Source: Deltaproteobacteria bacterium
GTDB lineage: Bacteria; Desulfobacterota; GWC2-55-46
Direction: 5' to 3'
Assembly (NCBI GenBank): GCA_016182655.1
Contig: JACPGB010000047.1
Location: 1-48,366 of the forward strand
DNA length: 48,366 bases
A program made the translations under genes and the position numbers. Below are positions 3,146-27,675 of the stretch, in pieces (positions within the stretch are counted from its first letter, which is position 1; each line of letters begins with the position of its first letter). The notes under the pieces are model-generated. The model worked only from the letters and a program-made list of their open reading frames with translations, had not been told where the DNA came from and made no database searches.

Positions 3146-3838
3146 TCAGGCGGCACAGAAGGGATAGAGCATCGTGAGAAGATCGGCGGAGACATGGAAG
3201 TGGAAGATCGATTTGAAGCCGAGCGCGATTATAATGACCGACGATAAGGCGGTAACGGGCAGGGTTTTAAGTCTCAAGCCGGTGATCGACCCCGCGAACA
3301 GCATGGGGACAAACGTGCCTGCGCCAAGCGCGAGTGTGACGAGCGCGCCTTCAAACGGACTGCCGGTGGAGGCGGCCTTGAGCCCCGCGGCATATAAGAG
3401 CCCGCACGGCACAAGCCCGTTAAGCATGCCTATTATGAAAATCGTCTGCCTATTTGCCTTGGACTCCCCCCTGCCAACGATAGCGAGTGCGCGGCCAAGT
3501 AGGCCTGTGGGAAAGAGAGCGATAAGCCGTCTCTTTATGGATCCGGGCATGAGTCCGAGCATGTCGATGCCTATGGCGACCATAACGGCCCCGGCGACCA
3601 CGGGGACGACCGACTGAAGGCCTCCGAACAAGCCTGTGCCGGAGAGCGCCTTTCCGATGAGCCCGGCGAGCGCGCCGAGAACGGCGTAGGACGAGAGCCT
3701 TCCGGAGTTGTATAAAAGAGAAAATTTGAGACCCCCGCCGAGCTTCATGCCGCAGGCCGCGGCGAGCGCTCCGCACATCGCGACACAGTGGAGCGCGCCC
3801 AGGGTCCCTGCCGCGAATATAAGGATGTAGTCTCCCAT
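3146..3838 (-). CDS. TauE/SafE-like (DsbD_2) membrane protein of the cbb3 cluster
   Basis: This 230-residue integral membrane protein has about six hydrophobic segments and an N-terminal HCVAMCG motif (17-23) inside the first one. It belongs to the sulfite exporter TauE/SafE / cytochrome c biogenesis transmembrane family. Members with this HCxxMCG signature are regularly encoded at the end of ccoGHIS clusters. The Cys/His/Met residues would suit copper handling, which fits oxidase CuB assembly. It starts 1 bp after the ccoS stop, so it is surely in the same transcript. The substrate is not known from sequence; copper or a thiol-redox role are both possible. Confidence 0.8.
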   Translation of the reverse strand: MGDYILIFAAGTLGALHCVAMCGALAAACGMKLGGGLKFSLLYNSGRLSSYAVLGALAGLIGKALSGTGLFGGLQSVVPVVAGAVMVAIGIDMLGLMPGSIKRRLIALFPTGLLGRALAIVGRGESKANRQTIFIIGMLNGLVPCGLLYAAGLKAASTGSPFEGALVTLALGAGTFVPMLFAGSITGLRLKTLPVTALSSVIIIALGFKSIFHFHVSADLLTMLYPFCAA

Positions 3839-3839
3839 T

Positions 3840-3986
3840 CTATTCGCCCTTGTCGTCGAAGAATATCCTGTGCTTGGGCCCCTCCAGGTCCTCGAACTGG
3901 CCGGACTTTACCGACCAGATAAGGAAGATGAGCCCGACGAAGCCCAGGAATATCACCGCCGGTATCATTATGTAGAGCATCTCCAT
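3840..3986 (-). CDS. ccoS: cbb3 oxidase assembly protein CcoS
   Basis: A small 48-residue gene with the CcoS pattern: an N-terminal transmembrane helix (about residues 5-24), then SGQFEDLEGPKHRIFFDD, which is the conserved tail of the family. CcoS is needed for insertion of haem and copper into the cbb3 oxidase. The ATG at 3986-3984 is preceded by AAGGAGA. It starts 2 bp after the ccoI stop and ends just before the TauE/SafE-like gene. Confidence 0.93.
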   Translation of the reverse strand: MEMLYIMIPAVIFLGFVGLIFLIWSVKSGQFEDLEGPKHRIFFDDKGE

Positions 3987-3988
3987 GA

Positions 3989-6496
3989 CTATCTTCTCCT
4001 TAACGAATTGCCGATAACGACAAGCGAGCTTACCGGCATGGCGACGGCCGCGAGGAGCGGGAAGACGAGCCCCGAGGCCGCAAGCGGCGTGACTATCAAG
4101 TTGTATACGACGGAAATGGCGAGGTTCTCCTTTATCGCCCTCATCGTCCCCCTTGACAGCTCTATGGCGCGCGCCACGTTCGCGGCCCTGTTATCAAGGA
4201 GGACTATGTCAGCCGAACCTATGGCGAGATCGGTGCCGTTGCCCATGGCGATGCCGATGTCCGAGGCCGCGAGCGCCGGGCCGTCGTTAACGCCGTCCCC
4301 GACCATTATTACCTTCTCCCCCTTCTCCCTTAAGGCCCTGATGTACGCCTCCTTGCCCTCCGGCAGGACCCCTGCAACGACATCGTCTATGGACACGGCC
4401 TTGCCTACGGCAGAGGCGGTAGCCTCTACGTCGCCTGAAAGCAGGCTCACTTTCAACCCCATTTTCTTGAGCCTTGAGACGAGCTCCGGGGCGTCTTTTC
4501 TCACAGGGTCGGATACGGCGATGAGTCCAAGCGCCTCGTCTTTACCCGACTTCGCCACAAAGACGACAGTCCTGCCGGCCCGGGAGAGGTCGGCCGCGAG
4601 CGCAAGGGACCTGGGAGGTATGCGGAAGCCCATTTCAGTTATGAACGCCGCGCTCCCGGCCCATGCCCTCACGCCGTTCCAGCGCGCCGATCTTATATCC
4701 CTGGGCCTTGTGACCCTGAGCTCGCCTTCAACACCCTTTCCCGGATGGGCCTTGAAGGACGACTGCAATATGTCGCATGAGCGCTTGATCGCCTCGGCAT
4801 GTATCGCCTTCCCTATCGGGTGCTCCGAGTACTGCTCGATGGAGGCGGCAACGGACAAGAGCTCCTCTTCATCTAACCCGTTCGACGCCGCCACCTCTGT
4901 GACCGACATCCTTCCCTCTGTGAGCGTCCCGGTCTTGTCGAATACGACATGCGTTGCCTTGCATGCCTTTTCAAGGACCTCGCTCCCCTTTACGAGTATG
5001 CCGTCTCTCGCCGCCCTCGATGTCCCGGCGAGTATCGCGGCCGGGGTGGCGAGAGCGAGCGCGCACGGGCATGTGATGATGAGGACGGATACCGCGTACA
5101 CGGCGGCCTGCCCCACCCCGGCGTGGAGATACCAGTAGATGAACGTAAGGGAGGCTATCGCGAGGACTATCGGTATGAAATAACCGGCGGCCTTGTCGGC
5201 CACACGCTGTATCGCGGTTTTTTTAAGGAGCGCGTCCTCCACGAGCCTCTTTATGCCGGAGAGGCGCGTAAAGTCCCCTGTTGCGGCGACCTTTACAAGG
5301 AGCCTGCCGTCGAGGTTCATGGCGCCGCTCCAGACCTTTGCGCCCGAGGACTTATCTACCGCGAGCGACTCTCCGGTAAGCATCGATTCGTCGACTTTCG
5401 ATGCGCCCTCGAAGACGGCCCCGTCGACCGGAATCCTCTCGCCGGGCCTCACCTCGACGATGTCGCCGGGGACGAGGGACTTTACGGCCGCCACCCTCCT
5501 TACCCCGTTCAGGTACAGGGTCGCGCTCAGCGTCTCGCGGGCAGAAAGCCCAAGAGAGGCCCAGCCCGCCCTCTTCCTCGCCTCTGCCTCGAGGAGCCTC
5601 CCTATGAGGATGAGGAATATGAACATCGCGGCAGAGTCGAAGTATACGCCACCCCCGGCCCCAATGGCCCCCCCGGCCCCTTTGACGCCCGCAACCGATG
5701 CAAGGCTGTAGCCGAACGTTATCAATATGCCGAGCGCTATGGGGAGGTCCATGGTCAGGGCCCTCGCCCTTATCCCGTAAAAGGCCCCTCTCAGGAAAGG
5801 CAGTCCAGCGTAGAACACCACCGGGACGGTCACGAGAAGGCTCAATATCTCAAGGAAGAACCTCGACCCCTCGTCCATGGACCAGAGAAAACCGCCGTAG
5901 AGCCCCTCTGCGAGGAACATCGTTGCTACGGTCCCGAACCCGGCGACGGCAAGCCGTATTATAGCGTCGTCGCGCCGCTTCTCCAGCGGCGCTTCGATTG
6001 ACGGGTCGTACGGGGTCGCCCTGTAGCCGACGGAGCCTACGCGCGAGACGATCTCCTTGAGCGTAGTCTTTTCGCCGTCCCACCTGACCTTAAGCCTGTG
6101 CGTCGAAAAATTGAGGCGCGACGAAGCAACACCATTAATATGCGAGGTGACTTTTTCTATGAGCCAGATGCAGGCGGAGCAGTGCACGCCCTCGACGATG
6201 AGAGAGGCTTCGCTCATTTCCCCGGAGGCCTCTATGTGGTCCTCGTCGATAAAAGGGGACTCCTCTATCGATACGGGCCTTCCGGGCCTCTCCTTATCCC
6301 TCTTTTCATAGTAGATATCGAGCCCGGCCCCATAGATGTACCTGCAGACAGAGAGGCACCCGTTACAGCAGAACGCCAGGAGCTCGCCCTTTATGGATTG
6401 GGTCAACGGCTCGGAGGGGAGCGCCTCTCCGCAGTGGAAGCAGTGCCCTTCGTGGGGGGCGGCAAAAAAGCAGGGCGCTTCGTTGGTCGTTGCCAT
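3989..6496 (-). CDS. ccoI: Copper-exporting P1B-type ATPase for cbb3 oxidase assembly (CcoI/FixI)
   Basis: The 835-residue protein is a full-length FixI/CcoI ATPase that moves copper out of the cytoplasm for CuB maturation. It starts with a cysteine-rich region (HCFHCGEALP at 18-27, FCCNGCLSVCRY at 42-53) typical of this subfamily, then an HMA domain with HCSACIW (105-111). Eight predicted membrane helices follow, with the ion-binding CPC motif at 476-478. The phosphorylation motif is at Asp520 (DKTGT), and GDGVNDGPAL with the MGNG segment marks the P domain. It lies 17 bp after ccoH and 2 bp before ccoS. Confidence 0.96.
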   Translation of the reverse strand: MATTNEAPCFFAAPHEGHCFHCGEALPSEPLTQSIKGELLAFCCNGCLSVCRYIYGAGLDIYYEKRDKERPGRPVSIEESPFIDEDHIEASGEMSEASLIVEGVHCSACIWLIEKVTSHINGVASSRLNFSTHRLKVRWDGEKTTLKEIVSRVGSVGYRATPYDPSIEAPLEKRRDDAIIRLAVAGFGTVATMFLAEGLYGGFLWSMDEGSRFFLEILSLLVTVPVVFYAGLPFLRGAFYGIRARALTMDLPIALGILITFGYSLASVAGVKGAGGAIGAGGGVYFDSAAMFIFLILIGRLLEAEARKRAGWASLGLSARETLSATLYLNGVRRVAAVKSLVPGDIVEVRPGERIPVDGAVFEGASKVDESMLTGESLAVDKSSGAKVWSGAMNLDGRLLVKVAATGDFTRLSGIKRLVEDALLKKTAIQRVADKAAGYFIPIVLAIASLTFIYWYLHAGVGQAAVYAVSVLIITCPCALALATPAAILAGTSRAARDGILVKGSEVLEKACKATHVVFDKTGTLTEGRMSVTEVAASNGLDEEELLSVAASIEQYSEHPIGKAIHAEAIKRSCDILQSSFKAHPGKGVEGELRVTRPRDIRSARWNGVRAWAGSAAFITEMGFRIPPRSLALAADLSRAGRTVVFVAKSGKDEALGLIAVSDPVRKDAPELVSRLKKMGLKVSLLSGDVEATASAVGKAVSIDDVVAGVLPEGKEAYIRALREKGEKVIMVGDGVNDGPALAASDIGIAMGNGTDLAIGSADIVLLDNRAANVARAIELSRGTMRAIKENLAISVVYNLIVTPLAASGLVFPLLAAVAMPVSSLVVIGNSLRRR

Positions 6497-6513
6497 TTCG
6501 ATGAAACCCTTCC

Positions 6514-6969
6514 TCAGGCCTTCAGCCTGAATGTCTCTTCAACAGATTTGCCGCCGAGCGTCGCGGTGACGCGCAGATCCCACCAGCCTTCGAGCGGAAG
6601 GACTACCTGCCCCTTATAGAGTCCTGCCTCGTCCTTAAGCTCGTGGACCGCATCAAACCCGCCTGTCGCGGGCCTCATGACAAGGAGCGTGACCATCGCG
6701 CCTTGAATCACGCCGCCGTCCCTGTCAAGAAGGCTCACCTTTACATCTTTTATCCCGGTCCCGCCCGCCACGGTGGAAAGTCTTAAAGTCCAGCCGAGTT
6801 CCCTCTCGGTCTTTATCCTCTCGCCGTATTTGAGCCCCTTTTCGTAATAATCCCTGTCGGTAAGGCCGTCGTCGCTCCATAAGGCGAGCGAGAGGAACGC
6901 GATATTTACCGCAAAGACGACCCCGAGCGATATGCCTATGGCCAGCGGCCACTTCGATCCCTTTTTCAT
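6514..6969 (-). CDS. ccoH: cbb3 oxidase assembly protein CcoH (FixH)
   Basis: The 151-residue protein has one N-terminal membrane helix (about residues 8-30) and a periplasmic FixH domain, ending in the typical GWWDLRVTATLGGK segment. The motif DRDYYEKGLKY after the helix is characteristic of FixH. CcoH stabilises early assembly intermediates of cbb3 oxidase and works with CcoI. Its start overlaps the ccoG stop by 4 bp, indicating translational coupling. Confidence 0.93.
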   Translation of the reverse strand: MKKGSKWPLAIGISLGVVFAVNIAFLSLALWSDDGLTDRDYYEKGLKYGERIKTERELGWTLRLSTVAGGTGIKDVKVSLLDRDGGVIQGAMVTLLVMRPATGGFDAVHELKDEAGLYKGQVVLPLEGWWDLRVTATLGGKSVEETFRLKA

Positions 6970-8342
6970 TTAGCTGCCCCTTCCGCCCTTGAGAGCTTCG
7001 TCGCGCCTTCTTCAGGTATGAGGAAGGTCGACTGCCTCGCGGCCCTGACACCCGGGTCTGCCGCGTCCTCCAGGACGAAGTCGAACTTTTTCACGCGCTC
7101 GCCCTCTGCCCTGTCCACTACGAGCGCGAGCGCGGTCTGGTAGACCTCCCCGCTCTTTACGGTCACCGGGTTTCTGCCGACGATGATCGAAGCGTCTATG
7201 CCTTCGGTCTTTATGAGATAGGTATGCTCTTTTGTATCCATGTTCATCGCCTTTATGGTGTAGAGGTTTGAAACTCGCCCGTCGGCCCCCTTCTGAAACA
7301 GGGACGCCCTGTCGCGCAAGACCTCTATCTCAAGGGGCGTCCTTGTGGCAAGCTTCCAGGAGAGGAGCGAAAAGAGCGCCGTGAGGCAAAAGCCGTAGAG
7401 GACGACCCTCGGCCTCAATACCTTTGTGGTCCCGCCGGAGATGGTACTGAGCGACCCGTACCTGATGAGCCCTTCCTTCAATCCCATCTTCCTCATGACC
7501 GAGTCGCACGCGTCTATGCATTGCGCGCAGGCGATGCACTCGTACTGGAGCCCGTTCCTTATATCGATGCCGGTCGGGCAGGCCTGAACGCAAAGCGTGC
7601 AGTCGACGCAGTCACCGGCCCCGTCTTTTTTCGCTCTTCCGTGCGACCTCGGCTCGCCCCTCTTCGGGTCGTAACCGATGATCAGCGTGTCCTGATCGAA
7701 GAGCGCCGACTGGAAGCGCCCGTACGGACACGGGACAAGGCACATGAGTTCCCGTAAAAAGGCGCAGTCTCCGTACGTGGTAAACGTGAAGAGGCCGAGC
7801 CAGAAGGCGTTCGAGCCGGTAAGAGAGCCGGTCGTGATCCTCGCCATGAGCTCCATCGGCGGGATGAAGTACGAGACGAACGCGAAGGCTGTCGCAAACG
7901 AAAAGGCGAGCCAGACGGCGTGCTTGGCGATCTTCCTCGCGGCCTTGTTGCCCGAGAGGGTCGAGCCGTCGAGTTCCATCCTTTTCCTTCTCCCGCCCTC
8001 GATGAAGCGCTCTATCCTCATGAATATGTCGGTGAATACCGTCTGCGGGCAGGCATATCCGCACCAGAGCCTGCCGGCGACCGCCGTGAAGAAGAAGAGC
8101 GCTATCACGAGGAAGACGAGCGCGAAGGCGAGGTAATAGAGCTCCTCGGGCCAGAAGGTGAAGTTGAATATGTGGAACTTCCTCCCGGGTATGTCGAAGA
8201 GGATCGCCTGGGCTCCATTGTATTTGACCCACGGGAGCACGAAGTAGACGGCGAGGATGGCGAAGGAGACTATCGAGCGCAGTCTCCTGAACCTCCCCGC
8301 CACCTCCCTCATGTATATCTTGGTGCGCTTTTCTGTTTCCAT
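6966..8342 (-). CDS. ccoG: cbb3 oxidase accessory ferredoxin-type protein CcoG
   Basis: The 458-residue membrane protein matches CcoG/RdxA/FixG, recently described as a cupric reductase supporting CuB assembly. It has several membrane helices in the first 220 residues, with CGYACPQTVFTDIFMRIE in between, then two 4Fe-4S ferredoxin motifs (CVDCTLCVQACP and CIACAQCIDACD). Another membrane helix follows, and the C-terminal half is an Ig-like periplasmic domain. It is encoded 9 bp after ccoP and overlaps ccoH by 4 bp. Confidence 0.95.
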   Translation of the reverse strand: METEKRTKIYMREVAGRFRRLRSIVSFAILAVYFVLPWVKYNGAQAILFDIPGRKFHIFNFTFWPEELYYLAFALVFLVIALFFFTAVAGRLWCGYACPQTVFTDIFMRIERFIEGGRRKRMELDGSTLSGNKAARKIAKHAVWLAFSFATAFAFVSYFIPPMELMARITTGSLTGSNAFWLGLFTFTTYGDCAFLRELMCLVPCPYGRFQSALFDQDTLIIGYDPKRGEPRSHGRAKKDGAGDCVDCTLCVQACPTGIDIRNGLQYECIACAQCIDACDSVMRKMGLKEGLIRYGSLSTISGGTTKVLRPRVVLYGFCLTALFSLLSWKLATRTPLEIEVLRDRASLFQKGADGRVSNLYTIKAMNMDTKEHTYLIKTEGIDASIIVGRNPVTVKSGEVYQTALALVVDRAEGERVKKFDFVLEDAADPGVRAARQSTFLIPEEGATKLSRAEGAAK

Positions 8343-8351
8343 CGCGCCTTC

Positions 8352-8849
8352 TTATTTAGTTTTATTGAGGCTCAAGACATAGGATGCGGCGTCAGCGATC
8401 TTTTTCGGCCCGAGCTGAGACTTCCACGTGGGCATGCCCTTGGCCGTGCCGTTGGTTATCGTGTGGACTACTTCTTCTGGAGTCCCGCCGTAGAGCCATG
8501 CGTTGTCCGTGAGGTTCGGCCCTATGCCGCCTGTGGCGTCAGCGCCGTGGCACGGCATGCAGTTCTGCGCGAATATCTCCTGCCCCCTCGCAATCGCCGA
8601 AGGGTCGTGGATAATGGCAGAGAGGTCGGCGCTCGCCGCGGAGGCGTATTTTTTCGACGCCTCCTTTACTTCGTTCTCATACATCCCGGCCTGGCTCCAG
8701 CCCGTCGCCCCTTTCCAGAAGCCCGGGTACAGGACCCAGTAGGCGATTGCGAAGGCTATCGTCACGTAGAGGAGCCACATGAGCCACGCCGGTATCGGGT
8801 TGTCGTATTCTTCAATTCCGTCTATCGAGTGTCCTATCTTTTCTGGCAT
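8352..8849 (-). CDS. ccoP: cbb3 oxidase subunit III, single-haem form
   Basis: The protein is 165 residues long. It begins with the conserved CcoP segment GIEEYDNPIPAWLMWLLYVT (11-30), one membrane helix, and then a single cytochrome c domain with CMPCH (97-101) and an axial Met139 in KGMPTW. Canonical CcoP is about 300 residues and carries two haem c groups. Here the second cytochrome domain is absent, with no frameshift to explain it. Electrons would pass from one haem in this subunit to CcoO and CcoN. It sits in the normal place, between ccoQ (15 bp away) and ccoG. Confidence 0.93.
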   Translation of the reverse strand: MPEKIGHSIDGIEEYDNPIPAWLMWLLYVTIAFAIAYWVLYPGFWKGATGWSQAGMYENEVKEASKKYASAASADLSAIIHDPSAIARGQEIFAQNCMPCHGADATGGIGPNLTDNAWLYGGTPEEVVHTITNGTAKGMPTWKSQLGPKKIADAASYVLSLNKTK

Positions 8850-8864
8850 TGCAACGCCTCCGGT

Positions 8865-9011
8865 TTATTGGTCTTCGCGGAACGGTATCTCCCTGTGACT
8901 CTCGAGCCTCTCCCTGTTCTTTCTTCTGAGAGCCCAGAACGAGACCGCGCAAAAGATGATGAAGAAGTAGACGAGGACGGCGGACTTTGAAAACGCGGTA
9001 AACTCTTCCAT
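8865..9011 (-). CDS. ccoQ: cbb3 oxidase subunit CcoQ
   Basis: A 48-residue gene between ccoO and ccoP. One membrane helix (about residues 9-27) is followed by a charged tail (RRKNRERLESHREIPFREDQ), the classical CcoQ layout. CcoQ stabilises the oxidase complex. It starts 3 bp after the ccoO stop and ends 15 bp before ccoP. Confidence 0.88.
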   Translation of the reverse strand: MEEFTAFSKSAVLVYFFIIFCAVSFWALRRKNRERLESHREIPFREDQ

Positions 9012-9014
9012 CCG

Positions 9015-9620
9015 CTACCTCCTCTTTACCGCTGTCCCGAGGGACTGCAGATAAGCGATGAGCGCGTCGAGCTCGGTCTTGCCCTTAATGGCCTCCGTTG
9101 CGCCGTCTATGTCAGCGCCCGCGTACGGGACGCCGAGAGAGACCATCGCCCTCATCTTCGTCTGTATGTTCGTGCCGTCGAGCGCGGTCCTGGAGAGCCA
9201 CGGGTAACGGGGCATTACGGATTCCGGAACTATCGACCTCGGGTCCTCCATGTGCTGTATGTGCCAGGAGTCGGGGTACTTGCCTCCGACGCGGGCAAGG
9301 TCCGGGCCGGTCCTCTTCGAGCCCCACTGGTACGGGTGGTCGTACATCGATTCGGCCGGGAGCGAATACGGGCCGTAGCGTTCGGTCTCGGCCCTGAAGG
9401 GCCTTATCATCTGCGAGTGGCAGTTGTAACAGCCTTCCCTGAGATATATGTCCCTGCCTTCGAGCTCGAGAGCCGTGTACGGGCGGACCCCTTCAAGCGG
9501 GGGTATCGTGGATTTTAGAAAAAAGAGCGGCGTTATCTCGACGAGCCCGCCGACGCTTATGAGCCCGGCTATGAGTATCGCCATGAAGAAACCGTTCTTT
9601 TCGATGACCTCGTGTCTCAT
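9015..9620 (-). CDS. ccoO: cbb3 oxidase subunit II (mono-haem cytochrome c)
   Basis: At 201 residues it has the full CcoO pattern: an N-terminal membrane anchor (about 12-32), the conserved [20 protein letters not shown] segment with the haem motif CYNCH (64-68), [15 protein letters not shown], and VMPRYPWL, which provides the axial Met. It carries electrons from CcoP to the catalytic subunit. The start overlaps the end of ccoN by 4 bp. Confidence 0.97.
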
Positions 9621-11077
9621 GCGGCCCTCCCTTCAGGAGAAAGGGCCGGGACCGTCTCTTCCGAGAGGACGGTCATGAGGACGTTGTATCCCATTACGAG
9701 CATGCCGCCGAAGTAGATGAGCCCGCCGAAGAGCCTCATCACATAGTACGGGTGCATAGCCGCGACCGATTCCGCGAATGTGTAGGTAAGCGCGCCGTCG
9801 GTGCCGACCGCCCTCCACATGAGCCCTTGCGTGATGCCCGATATCCACATGGCGACGATGTAGATGACGACGCCTATAGTCGCCATCCAGAAGTGCGTGT
9901 TGATGAGCTTCGTGCTGTACATGGCGGACTTCCCGAAGACCCTCGGAAGCATGTAGTAGACGGCGCCGATCGATATCATGGCGACCCAGCCGAGCGCGCC
10001 GCTGTGGACGTGCCCTATGCCCCAGTCCGTGTAGTGGGAGAGCGCGTTCACCGCACGGACCGCGAGCATGGGGCCTTCGAAGGTGGACATGCCGTAGAAG
10101 GAGACCGCGACTATCATGAATTTCAAGATCGGGTCGGTCCTGAGTTTTTCCCACGCGCCTTTAAGGGTCATTATGCCGTTCACCATGCCGCCCCATGAGG
10201 GGGCTATGAGCATCACGCTGAATGTCATGCCGAGCGTCTGAGTCCAGTCGGGGAGCGCCGTGTAGAGGAGATGGTGCGGGCCCGCCCAGATGTAAAGGAA
10301 TATGAGGGTCCAGAAATGGAGTATCGAGAGCCTGTAGCTGTAGATGGGTCTTCCGGCCTGCTTGGGGAGGAAGTAGTACATTATTCCGAGGAAGCCCGCG
10401 GTGAGGAAAAACCCGACGGCGTTGTGGCCGTACCACCACTGGACCATCGCGTCCTGTACGCCTGAATATACGGAGTATGACTTTGTGAGGCTTACCGGGA
10501 ACGCGAGCGAATTGAATACGTGGAGGACGGTTATGGTTATTATCATCGCCATGTAGAACCAGTTGCCCACGTAGATGTGGCTCTCTTTCCTTTTCCAGAT
10601 CGTCGCAAAGAAGTTTATGCCGTTAAGCACCCAGACGATCGCTATGAGTATGTCTATCGGCCACTCGAGCTCGGCGTACTCCTTTCCCGCGGTGATGCCG
10701 AGCGGGAGCGTCAAGGCGGCGAGCACGATTACCAGCTGCCAGCCCCAGAAGGTGATGTTCGCGAGCGTGTCGCTAAAGAGCCTTACGCGCGAGGTCCTCT
10801 GCACCGAGTACATCATCGCGGCAAAGAGGACGCACCCGCCGAATGCGAATATTACGGCGTTGGTGTGAAGGGGGCGGATCCTGCCGAACGAGAGCTCCGG
10901 CATGTCGAGGTTCATGAAGGGGAAGGCGAGCTCCGCCGCGGCGAGGACGCCGACGAGCATGCCGACTATACCCCATACCACCGCCATCACGCAGAACTTC
11001 CTTACTATCGCGTCGTTATATCCGGGCGAGTATCCTGACGGACCGGCCCCGGAGAGTACTGCCGAGTCTTGCTCCAT
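9617..11077 (-). CDS. ccoN: cbb3 oxidase catalytic subunit I
   Basis: A 486-residue haem-copper oxidase subunit that reduces oxygen to water at high affinity. His71 (RPLHTNAV) and His357 are expected ligands of the low-spin haem b. His218 ([10 protein letters not shown]) with His268/His269 ([14 protein letters not shown]) would bind CuB. His355 ([12 protein letters not shown]) would bind haem b3. The reading frame is open 28 codons further upstream, but the ATG at 11077 is preceded by AAGGAGGAG at the right distance and is chosen. It is the first gene of the oxidase operon, 151 bp after the regulator gene. Confidence 0.97.
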
Positions 11078-11122
11078 ACTGCTCCTCCTTTCGTTCCTGG
11101 CTTCTGTTTTTTTATATGGAAA

Positions 11123-11140
11123 GGCCTTCGGTCGAAGGCC
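11123..11140 (-). other. Stem-loop in the ccoN leader
   Basis: GGCCTTCG (11123-11130) and CGAAGGCC (11133-11140) make a perfect 8-bp stem with a 2-base centre (probably a 6-bp stem with a tetraloop in RNA). It lies 46 bp before the ccoN ATG in the presumed 5' untranslated region. There is no proper T-run after it, so mRNA stabilisation or a weak attenuator are more likely than a true terminator. Confidence 0.5.
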
Positions 11141-11200
11141 CCTTAAGTGCGGGCGGAGCATAGGAAATAATAACGGCGATAATATAGTGTAAAAAGGCCT

Positions 11201-15413: not shown

Positions 15414-16070
15414 CTACCTGTATCCGTTGCCGGAGGCGGCAGGCGCCCTCCAGGCCTTCCAGACGTTCTGGAGCGCGACCTGAAAATCCGCCTTCGAGGC
15501 CCCCTCATCCGCGACCTTGACCCTTAAAGGGGCCGGTTTTGAGGAGGATTTCAACCTCGGGTGCCAGACACTCACGTCGTACTCTCCCGCAGGGATGTTC
15601 TCGATCCTCCCCCTGCCGGCGTCTGATGCCGTCGAAAAGTGCGGGGTCTCCGATACGAAGACATACGCCGACATCCAGTCGTGTATGTTGCAGCCGAGGA
15701 CTACGACCCCGGGCTTGTCGAATACGACGGGGTTCGCGGGGGTCCCCGTGTAAAGCGGTATCTCGAACCTCTTGGCCTCGGAGAACGAATAGACGTGGTG
15801 GCGGAGCTTGTCGTGGTTCGGGAAACTCACCATTGTCCCCTTCTCGATCGGGGTCACATAGCCCACGAACTCCTTGTCTATCTGGTCTATCATAGCCTTC
15901 CCGGGGGCAGGTGAGGGCGCGCCGTCCCTTGGGACCGCGTAGACGACCGCGTCGGCGACGGGCTTGCCCTTGCCGTCGTTGACGGAGAACTCTATCGACC
16001 CGGCAAAGGCCGGGCAGGAGTGCGCCGCCACAAAAGCGGCAAAGAGTATTATGCCGGTTTTCTTGAGCAT
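15414..16070 (-). CDS. Periplasmic cupredoxin-like protein
   Basis: A signal peptide (about 1-23, ending SCPAFA) leads into a 195-residue periplasmic protein. A plastocyanin/azurin-like domain shows a possible type-1 copper site: His91 or His92 (RHHVYSF), Cys127, His130 and Met133 (GCNIHDWMSAYVF). The C-terminal part (IENIPAGEYDVSVWHPRL) resembles carboxypeptidase-regulatory-like beta-sandwiches. Such proteins are often labelled methylamine utilisation protein, though nothing here points to methylamine. It sits between an outer-membrane protein gene (9 bp) and the cyclase gene (0 bp). A role in redox or copper sensing for the cyclase is an inference from context. Confidence 0.8.
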   Translation of the reverse strand: MLKKTGIILFAAFVAAHSCPAFAGSIEFSVNDGKGKPVADAVVYAVPRDGAPSPAPGKAMIDQIDKEFVGYVTPIEKGTMVSFPNHDKLRHHVYSFSEAKRFEIPLYTGTPANPVVFDKPGVVVLGCNIHDWMSAYVFVSETPHFSTASDAGRGRIENIPAGEYDVSVWHPRLKSSSKPAPLRVKVADEGASKADFQVALQNVWKAWRAPAASGNGYR

Positions 16071-16079
16071 GGCTGATGT

Positions 16080-17066
16080 TTAGTAGCTGTACATGAAGAG
16101 GGCGCGAACGACCGAGCTTGAATAGCTCAGGTCGTCGGCCTCCCCCTCGTTCATCTCGTATCCGAGGCTGATCGACCCGTGGCCCTTAAAGAGCGAATAG
16201 CTCGCGTCCATGCTGAATGTGTTTATCGCCCCGGAGACCTTGTAGGTGCAGAAGTTCTCACTGTAGGCGTCGTCGACGATCATCGCGGATATATCCGCCC
16301 TTTGGAGCGCCTCGACGAAGTTCGTCGGCGTACACGACGAGTCGAATTCGCCTGACCTGTAGGCGTATCCCCCTGTCAACAGGACCCGCTCGGTAAGCGA
16401 GTACGAGGCCTCGATCGAGACCGTCTGGCTCTCCTGGTCGAAGACGTCGGAGGCGAGCCCCGGGATAGTATCCCCGTCCTCGCCATCCCTCGATTCATAC
16501 ATATAACCTACCCTGCCGTCGAGCCTTTCGGTGAGCCTCTTGCCGAATTGCACGCCGGCGCCAAAGAGGAAGCTGTCTCGCGCGGCGTCGTCCACGTCAA
16601 GGTATGCCGCGTACATGTTCGGCTTGACCCATGCCGCGTCAGCGCCGAACGCGAGCTTGTGTCTCATTGAGAGGCTTAAGCCCGCCTTACGATAATCGAG
16701 TTGTTCGAATTCTCCGAAGAGCCCATAGTCCAGGTCGAACGCAAGCCTTAAGCGAGCGGAGTCGGCGAGCTGGTTGTACCTTCCGAGAGTCAACCCGAGA
16801 AAGTATTCGGAGTCCTCCCTTTCGTCATCGGCAAAGGACGAGCGGTTGAGGTTTTTGTGGACCCTCGCGCCGGTCTCGGCGTCCGCTATCCACTCTACCC
16901 ATTCGGCTGACGCGGAGGTCGAAAAGAGGATGGTAGCTGAAAAAGTAATTGCGGCCAAAGATGCAAAGAGGGTCTTTTTACCGGAGAAATGGCGTGGTAT
17001 CAGAGAAAACAATAGCGCGGTCTTACGCGCCATGGTCTTGAGGCCTTTGAGTTCCGCTTCCTTCAT
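16080..17066 (-). CDS. Outer-membrane beta-barrel protein
   Basis: The protein has a long n-region, a hydrophobic signal core ending in STSASA before EWVEW, then alternating beta-strand sequence ending in VRALFMYSY with a terminal aromatic residue, as in outer-membrane barrels. It is not a member I can name. The frame is open up to a TTG at 17111, but that codon lies between the -35 and -10 of the likely promoter. ATG at 17066 (328 residues) is chosen; ATG at 17030 is also possible. It is first in the operon with the cupredoxin, cyclase and rluE genes. It could let ligand into the periplasm or be a surface partner of the sensor. Confidence 0.75.
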   Translation of the reverse strand: MKEAELKGLKTMARKTALLFSLIPRHFSGKKTLFASLAAITFSATILFSTSASAEWVEWIADAETGARVHKNLNRSSFADDEREDSEYFLGLTLGRYNQLADSARLRLAFDLDYGLFGEFEQLDYRKAGLSLSMRHKLAFGADAAWVKPNMYAAYLDVDDAARDSFLFGAGVQFGKRLTERLDGRVGYMYESRDGEDGDTIPGLASDVFDQESQTVSIEASYSLTERVLLTGGYAYRSGEFDSSCTPTNFVEALQRADISAMIVDDAYSENFCTYKVSGAINTFSMDASYSLFKGHGSISLGYEMNEGEADDLSYSSSVVRALFMYSY

Positions 17067-17101
17067 ATCAACATCCGTCTTAGCCTGGAATAGACGGCTA
17101 A

Positions 17102-17130
17102 ATAATGACAAAACCCGTTTTTTTTGTCAA
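17102..17130 (-). promoter_or_regulatory. Promoter of the barrel-cupredoxin-cyclase operon
   Basis: TTGACA (17130-17125, minus strand) and CATTAT (17107-17102) are separated by 17 bp. The predicted start point is about 28 bases before the ATG at 17066. The perfect -35 and correct spacing support a sigma70 promoter. Confidence 0.6.
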
Positions 17131-20809: not shown

Positions 20810-20968
20810 AGCAGGCTTCCTGAAAGTTCCGGGATCCAGCAAGAGGAACGTGGTTACAAAACGGGTGCAATCGAGGCGTTAGAAGAGAAAGCGGCCCTGC
20901 TTAGGGAATCTTATGACACATTGAAAAAGTTGGTGCCCGAGGCCGGGATCGAACCGGCACGGCTTTAA
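20810..20968 (+). pseudogene. Uninitiated open frame, probable remnant of a decayed gene
   Basis: A frame of 52 sense codons is open from just after a TAA (20807-20809) to a TAA inside the tRNA-Leu gene. It has no start codon. Its middle part, from GYKTGAIEALEEKAALLRES to the tRNA boundary, has the amphipathic heptad pattern of a real helical protein and differs from the random frames nearby. The rest of the 366-bp gap after the kinase gene (20565-20930) shows nothing else I recognise. I do not know the parent family. Confidence 0.3.
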
Positions 20969-21018
20969 GGGCCGCGGGATTTTAAGTCCCGTGCGTCTAC
21001 CAGTTCCGCCACTCGGGC
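20931..21018 (-). tRNA. tRNA-Leu (anticodon UAA)
   Basis: The 88-nt minus-strand gene has a 7-bp acceptor stem (GCCCGAG with CTCGGGC), anticodon TAA in the loop ACTTAAAA, a long variable arm as expected for leucine, the T-loop GGTTCGATCC and an encoded CCA end (20933-20931). Confidence 0.97.
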
Positions 21019-21159: not shown

Positions 21160-21187
21160 TTGACAATTGGTCAGCGATTGCTATAAT
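21160..21187 (+). promoter_or_regulatory. Strong sigma70 promoter of the Cyc2-like gene
   Basis: TTGACA (21160-21165) and TATAAT (21182-21187) are both perfect consensus boxes with a 16-bp spacer. Transcription should start near 21194, about 100 bases before the ATG at 21296, so the message carries a long leader. The stretch 21019-21159 between tRNA and promoter shows nothing else recognisable. Confidence 0.85.
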
Positions 21188-21189
21188 TG

Positions 21190-21285
21190 GGGAAATCCGC
21201 AAAGGAGGTGACCCCTTAAAGGCAGGTCCCCCGATAGGCAACGCTCCAGGTAGAAGCTGGTTTCATCGCTGTAAATTATCCAAAA
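21190..21285 (+). promoter_or_regulatory. Structured 5' leader, possible riboswitch or regulatory RNA
   Basis: The leader between the promoter and the Cyc2-like gene can form alternative helices. GGGG (21189-21192) can pair with either of two CCCC runs (about 21212-21215 and 21229-21233). TCC-GCAAA-GGA forms a small GNRA-like hairpin, and CCAG and CTGG arms (about 21247-21259) another. A sequence that would be a perfect Shine-Dalgarno (AAAGGAGGTGA) lies in it without a following start codon. The real ribosome site, AAAAAGGAGG, is at about 21283-21292. It does not match a riboswitch class that I can name with confidence. Confidence 0.45.
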
Positions 21286-21295
21286 AGGAGGTAGT

Positions 21296-22528
21296 ATGAA
21301 GAAATCGTTGCTTTGTGCCGTAGCCGTTCTCTTCTTCTTTGCGCTCTCGATATTCGCGGTGCATGAGGCGGAGGCGGTCCCGGCGTTTGCTCGCCAGACC
21401 GGTCTGGCCTGCAATTCCTGTCACTTCCAGCATTTTCCCGCGCTGAACTCATTCGGCCGCGCCTTCAAGGACGGCGGCTACACCCAGGTGGGCGGACAGA
21501 GCCTCGTGGAAGGAGACCTTCTCTCCGTCCCCGTCGTGCTTAACGCCTCGCTCGTTACAAAGATAAGGTACCAGAAGAAGAACGGAGACGCCGAGACCGA
21601 CATCAACAAGGGCGAGTTCCAGTTCCCTGACGAGGCCGCGCTCCTCATCGGCGGCAGGGCCGGAGAGCACGTAGGTTTCCTCCTTGAGTCTTCCCTCATA
21701 GGCGAATTGAACAGCGATTCCTTCGCCTCCTTCAAGATGCCGATAGTCTTCAACGTTTCCGGAATCAACCTGAGCGCAATCCCGTTTACGACCGACGCCG
21801 CGGGCGCGGCCTACGGCTATGAGCTCCTGAACACCGGCGCGGTCCGCATGACCCGCGTCCTCGAGCACAGGAGGGAGACCTCCGGACAGCAGTACATAGG
21901 CACTGATGGTGCGGCAACGGGTCTTTCTCTCGTCGCCTCCAAGCCCATCGGTTACGTAAATTATACCGCCTACTACCCCGAGCACGGGTCAGCCGCGGCG
22001 GGACCGCTCCTTAACTACTTCAGGGTAGCCGCGACCCCGCAGGTCGGCAACTGGGACCTTGCCGGCGGCTTCCAGCTCTGGAATGGCACCTCCAAGACAG
22101 GCGACGGCGCAGGGGCGGTCCAGCAGAAGGCTGACGCGTGGGCCATAGACGCGCAGGCCCAGGGCACGGTAGGCAACTACCCGGTCGGCGTCTACGTGAC
22201 GTACGCCAGCGCCGCAAGCTCTGACACCAATGATATCGAGAACATGTTCAACTCCTCGACCGTCGACGACGAGACCGCCCTTACGCTCTTGGGCGAAGTC
22301 GGCGTGATACCCGGCAGGCTCACCCTTGCCGCGGGCTACAGGCTCGGCAAGAACGGCGACCCGAACGACGACGGGCAGGACAGCGATGACGCGGCTACCG
22401 TTGGCGCGGTCTACAACGCCATGCAGAACGTCCAGCTCCAGTTCAACCACACCATCTACTCCGGTGATGTAACGACAGACGCGAGCGGCGACCAGCTCAC
22501 GACTCTCATGCTCTTCGCGGCGTTCTAA
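21296..22528 (+). CDS. Cyc2-like outer-membrane cytochrome-porin fusion
   Basis: The 410-residue precursor has a signal peptide (about 1-27) and then a short cytochrome segment, PAFARQTGLACNSCHFQHFP, with the haem motif CNSCH at 39-43 and NSFGRAFKDGGYT after it. The remaining 340 residues look like a porin beta-barrel ending in a terminal Phe (LMLFAAF). This build and the motif are those of Cyc2, the fused monohaem cytochrome-porin that takes electrons from Fe(II) at the cell surface in iron oxidisers. Family members of unknown substrate exist, so iron oxidation is an inference. It has its own strong promoter and terminator, and differs in strand from most of the window. Confidence 0.75.
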   Translation: MKKSLLCAVAVLFFFALSIFAVHEAEAVPAFARQTGLACNSCHFQHFPALNSFGRAFKDGGYTQVGGQSLVEGDLLSVPVVLNASLVTKIRYQKKNGDAETDINKGEFQFPDEAALLIGGRAGEHVGFLLESSLIGELNSDSFASFKMPIVFNVSGINLSAIPFTTDAAGAAYGYELLNTGAVRMTRVLEHRRETSGQQYIGTDGAATGLSLVASKPIGYVNYTAYYPEHGSAAAGPLLNYFRVAATPQVGNWDLAGGFQLWNGTSKTGDGAGAVQQKADAWAIDAQAQGTVGNYPVGVYVTYASAASSDTNDIENMFNSSTVDDETALTLLGEVGVIPGRLTLAAGYRLGKNGDPNDDGQDSDDAATVGAVYNAMQNVQLQFNHTIYSGDVTTDASGDQLTTLMLFAAF

Positions 22529-22547
22529 ACGCAGTTGCTTCGGATGC

Positions 22548-22578
22548 GGGGAGGGCCTCTAAGGCCCTCCCCTTTTTT
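22548..22578 (+). terminator. Intrinsic terminator after the Cyc2-like gene
   Basis: GGAGGGCC and GGCCCTCC arms (extended to 10 bp) around the loop TCTAA are followed by TTTTTT (22573-22578). A textbook Rho-independent terminator, 20 bp after the stop. Confidence 0.93.
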
Positions 22579-22593
22579 ATTTAAGGAGAGCGG

Positions 22594-23439
22594 ATGTCAT
22601 CGATAAAAAACGCGTTCGCATTTGCGTTAAGCCTTACCCTCCTCTTCATCGCCTTTGGCTGTTCCGGCCCTCTCAAGGTAGCGTACAGGCCGGCCGAGGG
22701 CGTGCCGTCGAAACTTAAAGAGCCCTTACGGGTCAGCATCGCGCCCGTTGCCGACGCAAGGGGCGAGGCGGACCCACGGAAGATCGGAAAGATAGACGCG
22801 ACGATCGCCGACATGAACGCAACCAAGCTCGTACTCTCGGAAGAGCCCGCAAGGCTCGTTGAAAAGGCGCTCTCGGAAGAGCTTAAGGCCGCCGGGTTCA
22901 TCGTCTCGGGCGCGAAAGAGGCGGATCTCGTACTCGCAAGCTCTATAAAGTCCTTCAGGCTCGACGTGGGCGGGCGAGACGAGGTTGAGATAGCCATAGA
23001 CGCGGCCCTCGAGAAGTCAGGGGGCGGCGCGGTCTGGACGGGGACCTTCGCCTTCAAAAAGGAGCGGTACGCCGGTGTCATGGGCAACTCGCGTGGGACC
23101 ATTGAAAGGCTCGTCAACGGCGCTCTCTCGACCGCCTTAAGAAAAGGCGTTAACGACATGGTCGCGGCGCTGGATAAGCCCGTTGTCAACGCTGAAAGGC
23201 CTTCGAAAGACGCAGTGGAGGCTGCCGGAGCCGGGCGGCTCGTAATATCTTCGGTCCCGGCGCGCGCAAAGGTCTACATAGACGAGGTCTATTACGGGCT
23301 CACCCCGTTGTCCCTCGATCTAAAGCCGGGCATCCACGATATCAGCGTCAGCCAGAAGGGCTTCAGGGACTCTAAAGAGCGCGTCTCGGTCCGCTCCGGA
23401 GAGACGACAGAGCTTCCGGCTGTGCTCGACAAGGAATAA
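22594..23439 (+). CDS. Lipoprotein with C-terminal PEGA domain
   Basis: The 281-residue protein starts with a lipoprotein-type signal (hydrophobic stretch ending IAFGC; Phe at -2 makes the lipobox slightly unusual). Residues about 35-195 resemble the YajG/LptE-like fold: a strand with DARGEADPRKIG, then EELKAAGFIVSGAKEADLVL. Residues about 212-278 form a PEGA domain (SSVPARAKVYIDEVYYGLTP and LKPGIHDISVSQKGF), which usually binds surfaces or glycans. Function is unknown. The gene begins 15 bp after the preceding terminator with its own AAGGAG site, so it may rely on read-through or on a promoter overlapping the upstream gene. Confidence 0.75.
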   Translation: MSSIKNAFAFALSLTLLFIAFGCSGPLKVAYRPAEGVPSKLKEPLRVSIAPVADARGEADPRKIGKIDATIADMNATKLVLSEEPARLVEKALSEELKAAGFIVSGAKEADLVLASSIKSFRLDVGGRDEVEIAIDAALEKSGGGAVWTGTFAFKKERYAGVMGNSRGTIERLVNGALSTALRKGVNDMVAALDKPVVNAERPSKDAVEAAGAGRLVISSVPARAKVYIDEVYYGLTPLSLDLKPGIHDISVSQKGFRDSKERVSVRSGETTELPAVLDKE

Positions 23440-27579: not shown

Positions 27580-27675
27580 TGGCGGAAGGGGGAGGGAGTC
27601 GAACCCCCCGGTCGTCCGTAACGGCGACAGACAGGTTTTGAAGACCTGCAGGGCCACCGGGCCCTGTCCCCTTCC
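27580..27675 (-). tRNA. selC: Selenocysteine tRNA (anticodon UCA)
   Basis: The 96-nt gene has the hallmarks of tRNA-Sec: an 8-bp acceptor stem (GGAAGGGG with CCCCTTCC), a long D stem, anticodon TCA in GGTCTTCAAAACC, a very long variable arm, the T-loop GGTTCGACTCC and an encoded GCCA end. It implies that selenoproteins are made, although no selA, selB, selD or Sec-containing reading frame is visible in this window. Confidence 0.96.

Follow-up and report, generated by a model that had tools for sequence, protein, structure and literature searches.

A deltaproteobacterial Cyc2 cytochrome-porin at a conserved locus and its candidate lipoprotein partner

Introduction

The locus described here raises the question of whether a deltaproteobacterium carries a genuine Cyc2, a fused monohaem cytochrome-porin, and, if so, from which donor such a protein would take electrons and whether its gene stands alone. 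Cyc2 is an outer-membrane haem protein through which iron-oxidising bacteria draw electrons from dissolved iron. Cyc2 proteins are defined by an AXPXFAR[Q/K][T/Y] motif before CXXCH, a PXL motif four residues after the latter, a length of at least 365 residues and a 16-strand barrel (PMC8406198). The window, i.e. the whole stretch of DNA analysed (48,366 nucleotides, contig JACPGB010000047.1), contains a gene of this kind (Table 1), and a sequence-only reading had suggested that a deltaproteobacterial Cyc2 would widen the set of likely iron oxidisers. Such a widening is largely known, the Cyc2 carriers given in PMC12442345 already including Deltaproteobacteria and Nitrospirae; the Cyc2 of this lineage is thus listed in the literature, in which no study of such proteins was found. 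The fresh elements are a class-wide old locus, a strong conserved promoter and, above all, a lipoprotein partner gene that recurs beside cyc2.

Table 1. Features of the cyc2 locus and of its surroundings in the window
Feature	Position	Strand	Basis
cbb3 oxidase region: DsbD_2-type protein, ccoI-like ATPase, ccoH, ccoG, ccoP (one haem), ccoO, ccoN	3146..11161	-	Pfam
ccoN, in the cbb3 region about 10 kb from cyc2	9617-11161	-	Pfam
tRNA-Leu(UAA), upstream landmark of the conserved cyc2 locus	20931..21018	-	ARAGORN
Sigma-70-type promoter, TTGACA-N16-TATAAT, extended TG -10	21160..21187	+	12/12 match
5' leader, about 100 nt	21194..21295	+	Start inferred from the position of the -10 element
AAAGGAGGTGA, Shine-Dalgarno-like element near the 5' end of the inferred transcript	21201..21211	+	Anti-SD duplex energy
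Ribosome-binding site of cyc2, AAAAAGGAGGT	21282..21292	+	Sequence
cyc2, fused monohaem cytochrome-porin, 410 aa	21296..22528	+	ORF and sequence criteria, homologues, model, tree
Cyc2 cytochrome motif, residues 27-50, AVPAFARQT..CNSCH..PAL	21374..21445	+	Matches AXPXFAR[QK][TY], CXXCH and PXL (PMC8406198)
16-strand beta-barrel, residues 83-410	21542..22525	+	AlphaFold2 pLDDT 87, pTM 0.84; OprP/OprO Z 23.5
Intrinsic terminator between cyc2 and the lipoprotein gene	22548..22582	+	Stem 22548-22572, 11 pairs, then TTTTTTATTT
Lipoprotein, LptE/PqiC/PelC-like N-terminal fold and C-terminal PEGA domain, 281 aa	22594..23439	+	Pfam, linkage, co-occurrence, fold

Family membership and fold

The 410-residue protein displays the Cyc2 pattern AVPAFARQTGLACNSCHFQHFPALNSFGR: AVPAFARQT, at residues 27-35, lies upstream of a single CXXCH haem site (C39-N-S-C42-H43), which is followed by FQHF and then by P48-A-L50, and the chain is longer than the minimum of 365 residues. 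Sixteen barrel strands were counted from the DSSP line of its AlphaFold2 model, for which Foldseek returned OprP (2o4v) first and VIA-align ranked 2o4v and 4rjw (OprP and OprO) at the top, over 305-306 residues. The same two porins were the templates used for Cyc2PV-1 of Mariprofundus (PMC8406198). The 16-strand barrel predicted earlier was therefore borne out by a porin barrel model with OprP and OprO as its best solved matches, and the proposal of a Cyc2-like fused monohaem cytochrome-porin is upheld by motif, length, barrel model and tree (see below); judged by the published sequence criteria, with all of which it agrees, the protein is a genuine Cyc2. Searches of Pfam and NCBIfam with it returned no family, phmmer against the PDB gave a chance match only, and no relatives were found in a search of viral contigs.

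The short cytochrome segment has low model confidence, with residues 21-47 mostly below pLDDT 50, which could be taken to mean that the protein is a diffusion porin whose haem segment survives as a structural or sensory remnant and takes no part in energy metabolism. Against this stands the observation that the haem site and its flanking residues are invariant or nearly so in 73 sequences, which span several phyla, whereas the barrel is variable, and such a remnant is the least credible of the readings considered here.

A second haem-barrel protein, of 392 residues and with an FSRQ..CTFCH motif, is encoded in the same genome (L002 706-1884, on C2). Its gene adjoins that of a larger cytochrome-like protein with CXXCH motifs, and similar proteins are present in relatives.

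Transcription of the locus

The perfect consensus promoter reported upstream of cyc2 withstood comparison, since the same 12/12 match, with the same 16 bp spacer, recurs ahead of some 15 orthologues, in most cases at a distance of 120-160 nt from the start codon, and none of the shuffled upstream regions scored 12 (0/1,580). The leader that follows had been described as long and structured. It is indeed long (about 100 nt), but structure was not borne out: its folding gave z = +0.80, with 160 of 200 shuffles folding at least as well, and no Rfam family was matched by it. A riboswitch or other structured RNA was rejected on the same two grounds.

Near the 5' end of the leader, approximately 8-18 nt past the expected transcript start and some 80 nt before the true ribosome-binding site, lies the element AAAGGAGGTGA, every base of which can pair with the usual 3' end of 16S rRNA. 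The first 45 nt of the leader form an anti-SD duplex of -17.3 kcal/mol (shuffle p 0.007). Strong 5' elements of this type occur in six of the 19 leaders with a clear promoter (shuffle p <= 0.02). Among the leaders without one is that of L068, a different species of this genus. A small ORF behind AAAGGAGGTGA was rejected, no start codon being present at the usual spacing in the window. By analogy, AAAGGAGGTGA is a possible mRNA stabilizer: like the STAB-SD of Bacillus thuringiensis cry3A (PMC4113751), it is Shine-Dalgarno-like, sits close to the 5' end of the mRNA at a great distance from the start codon and is non-initiating, although the likeness is one of position and sequence only, cry3A belongs to another phylum and only some of the orthologues here carry the element.

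The terminator described as a textbook case after cyc2 was likewise substantiated; in addition to the 11-pair stem and TTTTTTATTT found here, 15 of the 25 orthologous gaps separating cyc2 from the lipoprotein gene contain a hairpin terminator, compared with 2/500 shuffled gaps. The claim of a self-contained, independent unit is, on the other hand, doubtful, because the conserved lipoprotein gene lies on the same strand, with its ATG 21 nt beyond the terminator stem, and the interval 21188-22594 showed nothing promoter-like. The opposite-strand setting claimed for cyc2 applies to the upstream genes and tRNA-Leu(UAA), which are on the minus strand, and again further downstream, but not to the next gene, that of the lipoprotein, on the plus strand.

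Lipoprotein partner gene

Pfam detected a PEGA domain and a weak match to Lipoprotein_16 in the 281-residue lipoprotein. In its model (pLDDT 90), approximately residues 24-197 match DUF330/PqiC, PelC, CsgG and LptE (Z 10-15), and the PEGA part separately matches transthyretin-like domains. LptE, PqiC and PelC belong to the lipoproteins of the outer membrane, and some of them act together with barrels or ring assemblies. The cyc2-linked lipoprotein resembles them in the predicted fold of this region and in its lipobox, but shares only 7-19% identity with them, carries an extra PEGA domain and is linked to cyc2 rather than to their own systems.

A scan of named genomes yielded 126 Cyc2 relatives, the best 80 of which were used. 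In 31 of these 80 loci an orthologue of the lipoprotein gene is found downstream of cyc2 on the same strand, usually after a gap of 58-368 nt (Deltaproteobacteria, one Nitrospirae, a Desulfuromonadales and two Hydrogenophilales-type genomes); in several Betaproteobacteria it lies 1.4-2.8 kb from cyc2, with other genes between. Across 59 relatives, 27 carry both genes, seven cyc2 only, five the lipoprotein gene only and 20 neither (Fisher p 6.6e-6, a value that ignores shared ancestry). One of the lipoprotein-only cases (G030; L209 1111-3220) retains a cyc2 remnant, of which about 80 residues were matched, just upstream of an intact lipoprotein gene, and two of the five (G029 and G052) are near contig starts. 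Strong lipoprotein homologues unlinked to cyc2 are present in two Gallionellaceae genomes (Ferrigenium and Sideroxydans) and in G686, and a search of probable zetaproteobacterial genomes gave at most PEGA-only matches. Gammaproteobacterial cyc2 loci have a dihaem cytochrome gene downstream instead. A literature search for the PEGA domain together with Cyc2 found no paper, and the lipoprotein looks like an undescribed accessory part of Cyc2.

In four gammaproteobacterial symbiont loci (L096, L103, L107 and L111) a small lipoprotein-like gene with PEGA-like sequence, recognized by eye, is located on the other strand; it belongs to a different family from the deltaproteobacterial partner.

Phylogenetic placement and age of the locus

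The best 80 of the 126 relatives come from Deltaproteobacteria, Nitrospirae, Campylobacterota, lucinid and tubeworm symbionts, Thiobacillus, Gallionella, Sideroxydans, Ferrigenium and others, a distribution that resembles the list of Cyc2 carriers in PMC12442345. Full-length identity to the homologues of Gallionella, Sideroxydans, Sideroxyarcus and Ferrigenium is 41-51%. Of all rows in the tree, Deltaproteobacteria bacterium GWB2_55_19 (L068) stands closest to the window protein, at 86% in the alignment used for the tree. In this tree, of 81 rows and built without Chlorobi and without named sequences of Mariprofundus or of the three biochemically tested Cyc2 proteins, the window protein, the Gallionellaceae and the probable zetaproteobacterial proteins form one clade on a long branch (SH-aLRT 99), apart from the Cluster-2-like proteins, the FAR[QK]Y proteins and the paralogue of its own genome. 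The zetaproteobacterial assignment concerns Pseudomonadota genomes with a full-length homologue and a second, FARKY copy (L142-L187), and is probable because of a pattern in the literature only (PMC7029218). A Cyc2 tree had been proposed as a check on the earlier reading, and the protein indeed falls inside the Cyc2 clade of the 81 rows, among relatives that bear the haem motif. It is likely, from the sequences compared, that it is nested inside Cluster 1 rather than beside it; an alternative tree uniting the Gallionellaceae, some other betaproteobacterial rows and the probable zetaproteobacterial proteins to the exclusion of the window group was not rejected (AU p 0.09).

Cyc2 orthologues are present in 34 of the 59 relatives, this genome counted, and within the order cyc2 mostly adjoins tRNA-Leu(UAA); the gene is therefore considered to be old in the lineage and vertically inherited. 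A recent horizontal gain by the genus was rejected on account of the same tRNA neighbour across the order. A selenocysteine tRNA gene (27580-27675 in the window) is also found near the conserved locus, and in several relatives as well. Many named relatives of the lineage come from groundwater.

Electron acceptors and carbon metabolism

The nearby cbb3 oxidase on which the earlier reading had built a chain to oxygen is real, but its linkage to cyc2 was observed only inside the genus, and no cbb3 oxidase was found within roughly 10 kb of cyc2 in the more distant relatives examined. The linkage was therefore down-weighted as evidence of joint function. The CcoP of this region (8352-8849) comprises only 165 residues and one haem domain, the usual subunit having two haems.

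The genome also encodes NarGHI and 14 cytochrome c domains over the cut-off. No dihaem or cyc1-like cytochrome gene was found next to cyc2 in the window, neither neighbour being a cytochrome; a cyc1-like gene lies directly downstream of cyc2 in many gammaproteobacterial and some betaproteobacterial loci. A reverse TCA cycle is suggested by a pair of weakly scoring subunits that resemble ATP-citrate lyase and whose genes come directly after that of isocitrate dehydrogenase (L201 2100-7643, on C11 of the same genome), and RuBisCO and the prismane/CODH families were not found in the genome (assembly 97.6% complete). The gene set would suit a lithoautotroph, with autotrophy as a tentative assignment, that respires oxygen or nitrate. 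The proposal that iron is oxidised with nitrate by way of a Cluster 1 Cyc2 has been made for Ca. Ferristratum (PMC8114936).

A 343-residue barrel-like protein with weak MtrB/PioB and PEP-CTERM outer-membrane matches, together with a 218-residue neighbour, is encoded at 15414-17111 of the window.

Discussion

Family membership, fold, the conserved locus, promoter, terminator and partner gene are computed findings, and the mechanism that we consider probable is built on them: a Cyc2 of the neutrophilic, Cluster 1 type would move electrons from Fe(II) inward to the cbb3 oxidase or NarGHI, with assistance from the lipoprotein. The strong conserved promoter and, in this species, the 5' Shine-Dalgarno-like element would give abundant cyc2 mRNA, while partial read-through of the terminator would, in the simplest reading, yield less lipoprotein than Cyc2. 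The exported protein would form a 16-strand outer-membrane barrel with haem covalently bound to its N-terminal segment, and would take up electrons one at a time from dissolved extracellular Fe(II). These would pass inward to periplasmic c-type cytochromes and from there to the cbb3 oxidase or, via the quinone pool, to nitrate through NarGHI, with carbon probably fixed through the reverse TCA cycle. The lipoprotein probably docks on the periplasmic face of the barrel, where it may help assembly, act as a plug or guide the acceptor.

An outward port that reduces Fe(III) or other external acceptors would be in line with the fact that many deltaproteobacteria export electrons, via multihaem conduits, and the direction of electron flow is not readable from sequence. 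The potential measured for a Cluster 1 Cyc2, 208 mV, nevertheless suits acceptance from Fe(II) (PMC8406198), and the genome encodes terminal reductases of its own, for oxygen and for nitrate, which makes outward flow very unlikely.

The nature of the donor deserves closer weighing. Sulfur-oxidising symbionts, Sulfurimonas, Thiobacillus and Sulfuritalea are among the closest relatives within the best 80 of 126, iron oxidation is unproven in the lucinid symbionts (PMC12442345), and an inward port for another donor, such as reduced sulfur species, reduced humics or another cell, would accommodate both observations. More generally, many Cluster 1 carriers are known sulfur oxidisers whose iron oxidation is unproven (PMC12442345), and cyc2 expression is not always in step with iron oxidation (PMC12442390). 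However, the Cluster 1 Cyc2 of Mariprofundus oxidises Fe(II) (PMC8406198) and iron oxidation is established for the Gallionellaceae with which the window protein shares a clade (PMC10734462); a donor other than Fe(II) is consequently regarded as improbable, though worth keeping in mind. The preferred reading, inward transfer from Fe(II), supports the oxidation of dissolved iron as an old, class-wide trait of an uncultured deltaproteobacterial lineage, combined there with the respiration of oxygen and nitrate and, probably, with the reverse TCA cycle.

A more specific proposal, offered tentatively as a possibility that may well fail, is that of a two-part outer-membrane device in which Cyc2 and a dedicated LptE/PqiC-like PEGA lipoprotein, docked on or in the barrel, are made at unequal levels because the terminator is leaky and because, in some species, a Shine-Dalgarno-like element at the 5' terminus stabilizes the mRNA. 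If this is true, the lipoprotein is an undescribed component of Cluster 1 iron oxidation, present also in some Gallionellaceae away from cyc2. As a partner of Cyc2 it would add another gene that can be followed and tested in a pathway so far understood largely from a single protein, and it may shed light both on the assembly of a barrel with an N-terminal haem and on onward electron transfer.

Comparison with known haem-barrel systems

The FSRQ-CTFCH paralogue of the same genome (L002) and the FAR[QK]Y proteins share with the window protein a monohaem segment fused to a barrel-like C-terminal part, but are only 23-32% identical to it and occupy long separate branches. The Cluster 2 type, represented by Acidithiobacillus Cyc2 and by plasmid 'cytochrome C' homologues (L036-L040, for which the cluster label is putative), has the haem motif and the barrel in common with it and differs in its separate clade, its ELTPFGR-type continuation, other barrel signatures and a gene that is often beside that of a c-type cytochrome. 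The closest system is Cyc2 Cluster 1, as in Cyc2PV-1 of Mariprofundus ferrooxydans, Gallionella and Sideroxydans, with which the window protein shares the N-terminal signal, the AXPXFAR[QK][TY]-CXXCH-PXL arrangement, a single haem, a fused 16-strand OprP/OprO-like barrel, its length and a cbb3 oxidase in the genome. From this cluster it is set apart by an identity to the Gallionellaceae homologues that stays within the range given above, by a cyc2 without an adjacent cyc1-like gene and followed instead by a terminator and a PEGA lipoprotein gene, and by its place in a conserved old locus of the deltaproteobacterial class.
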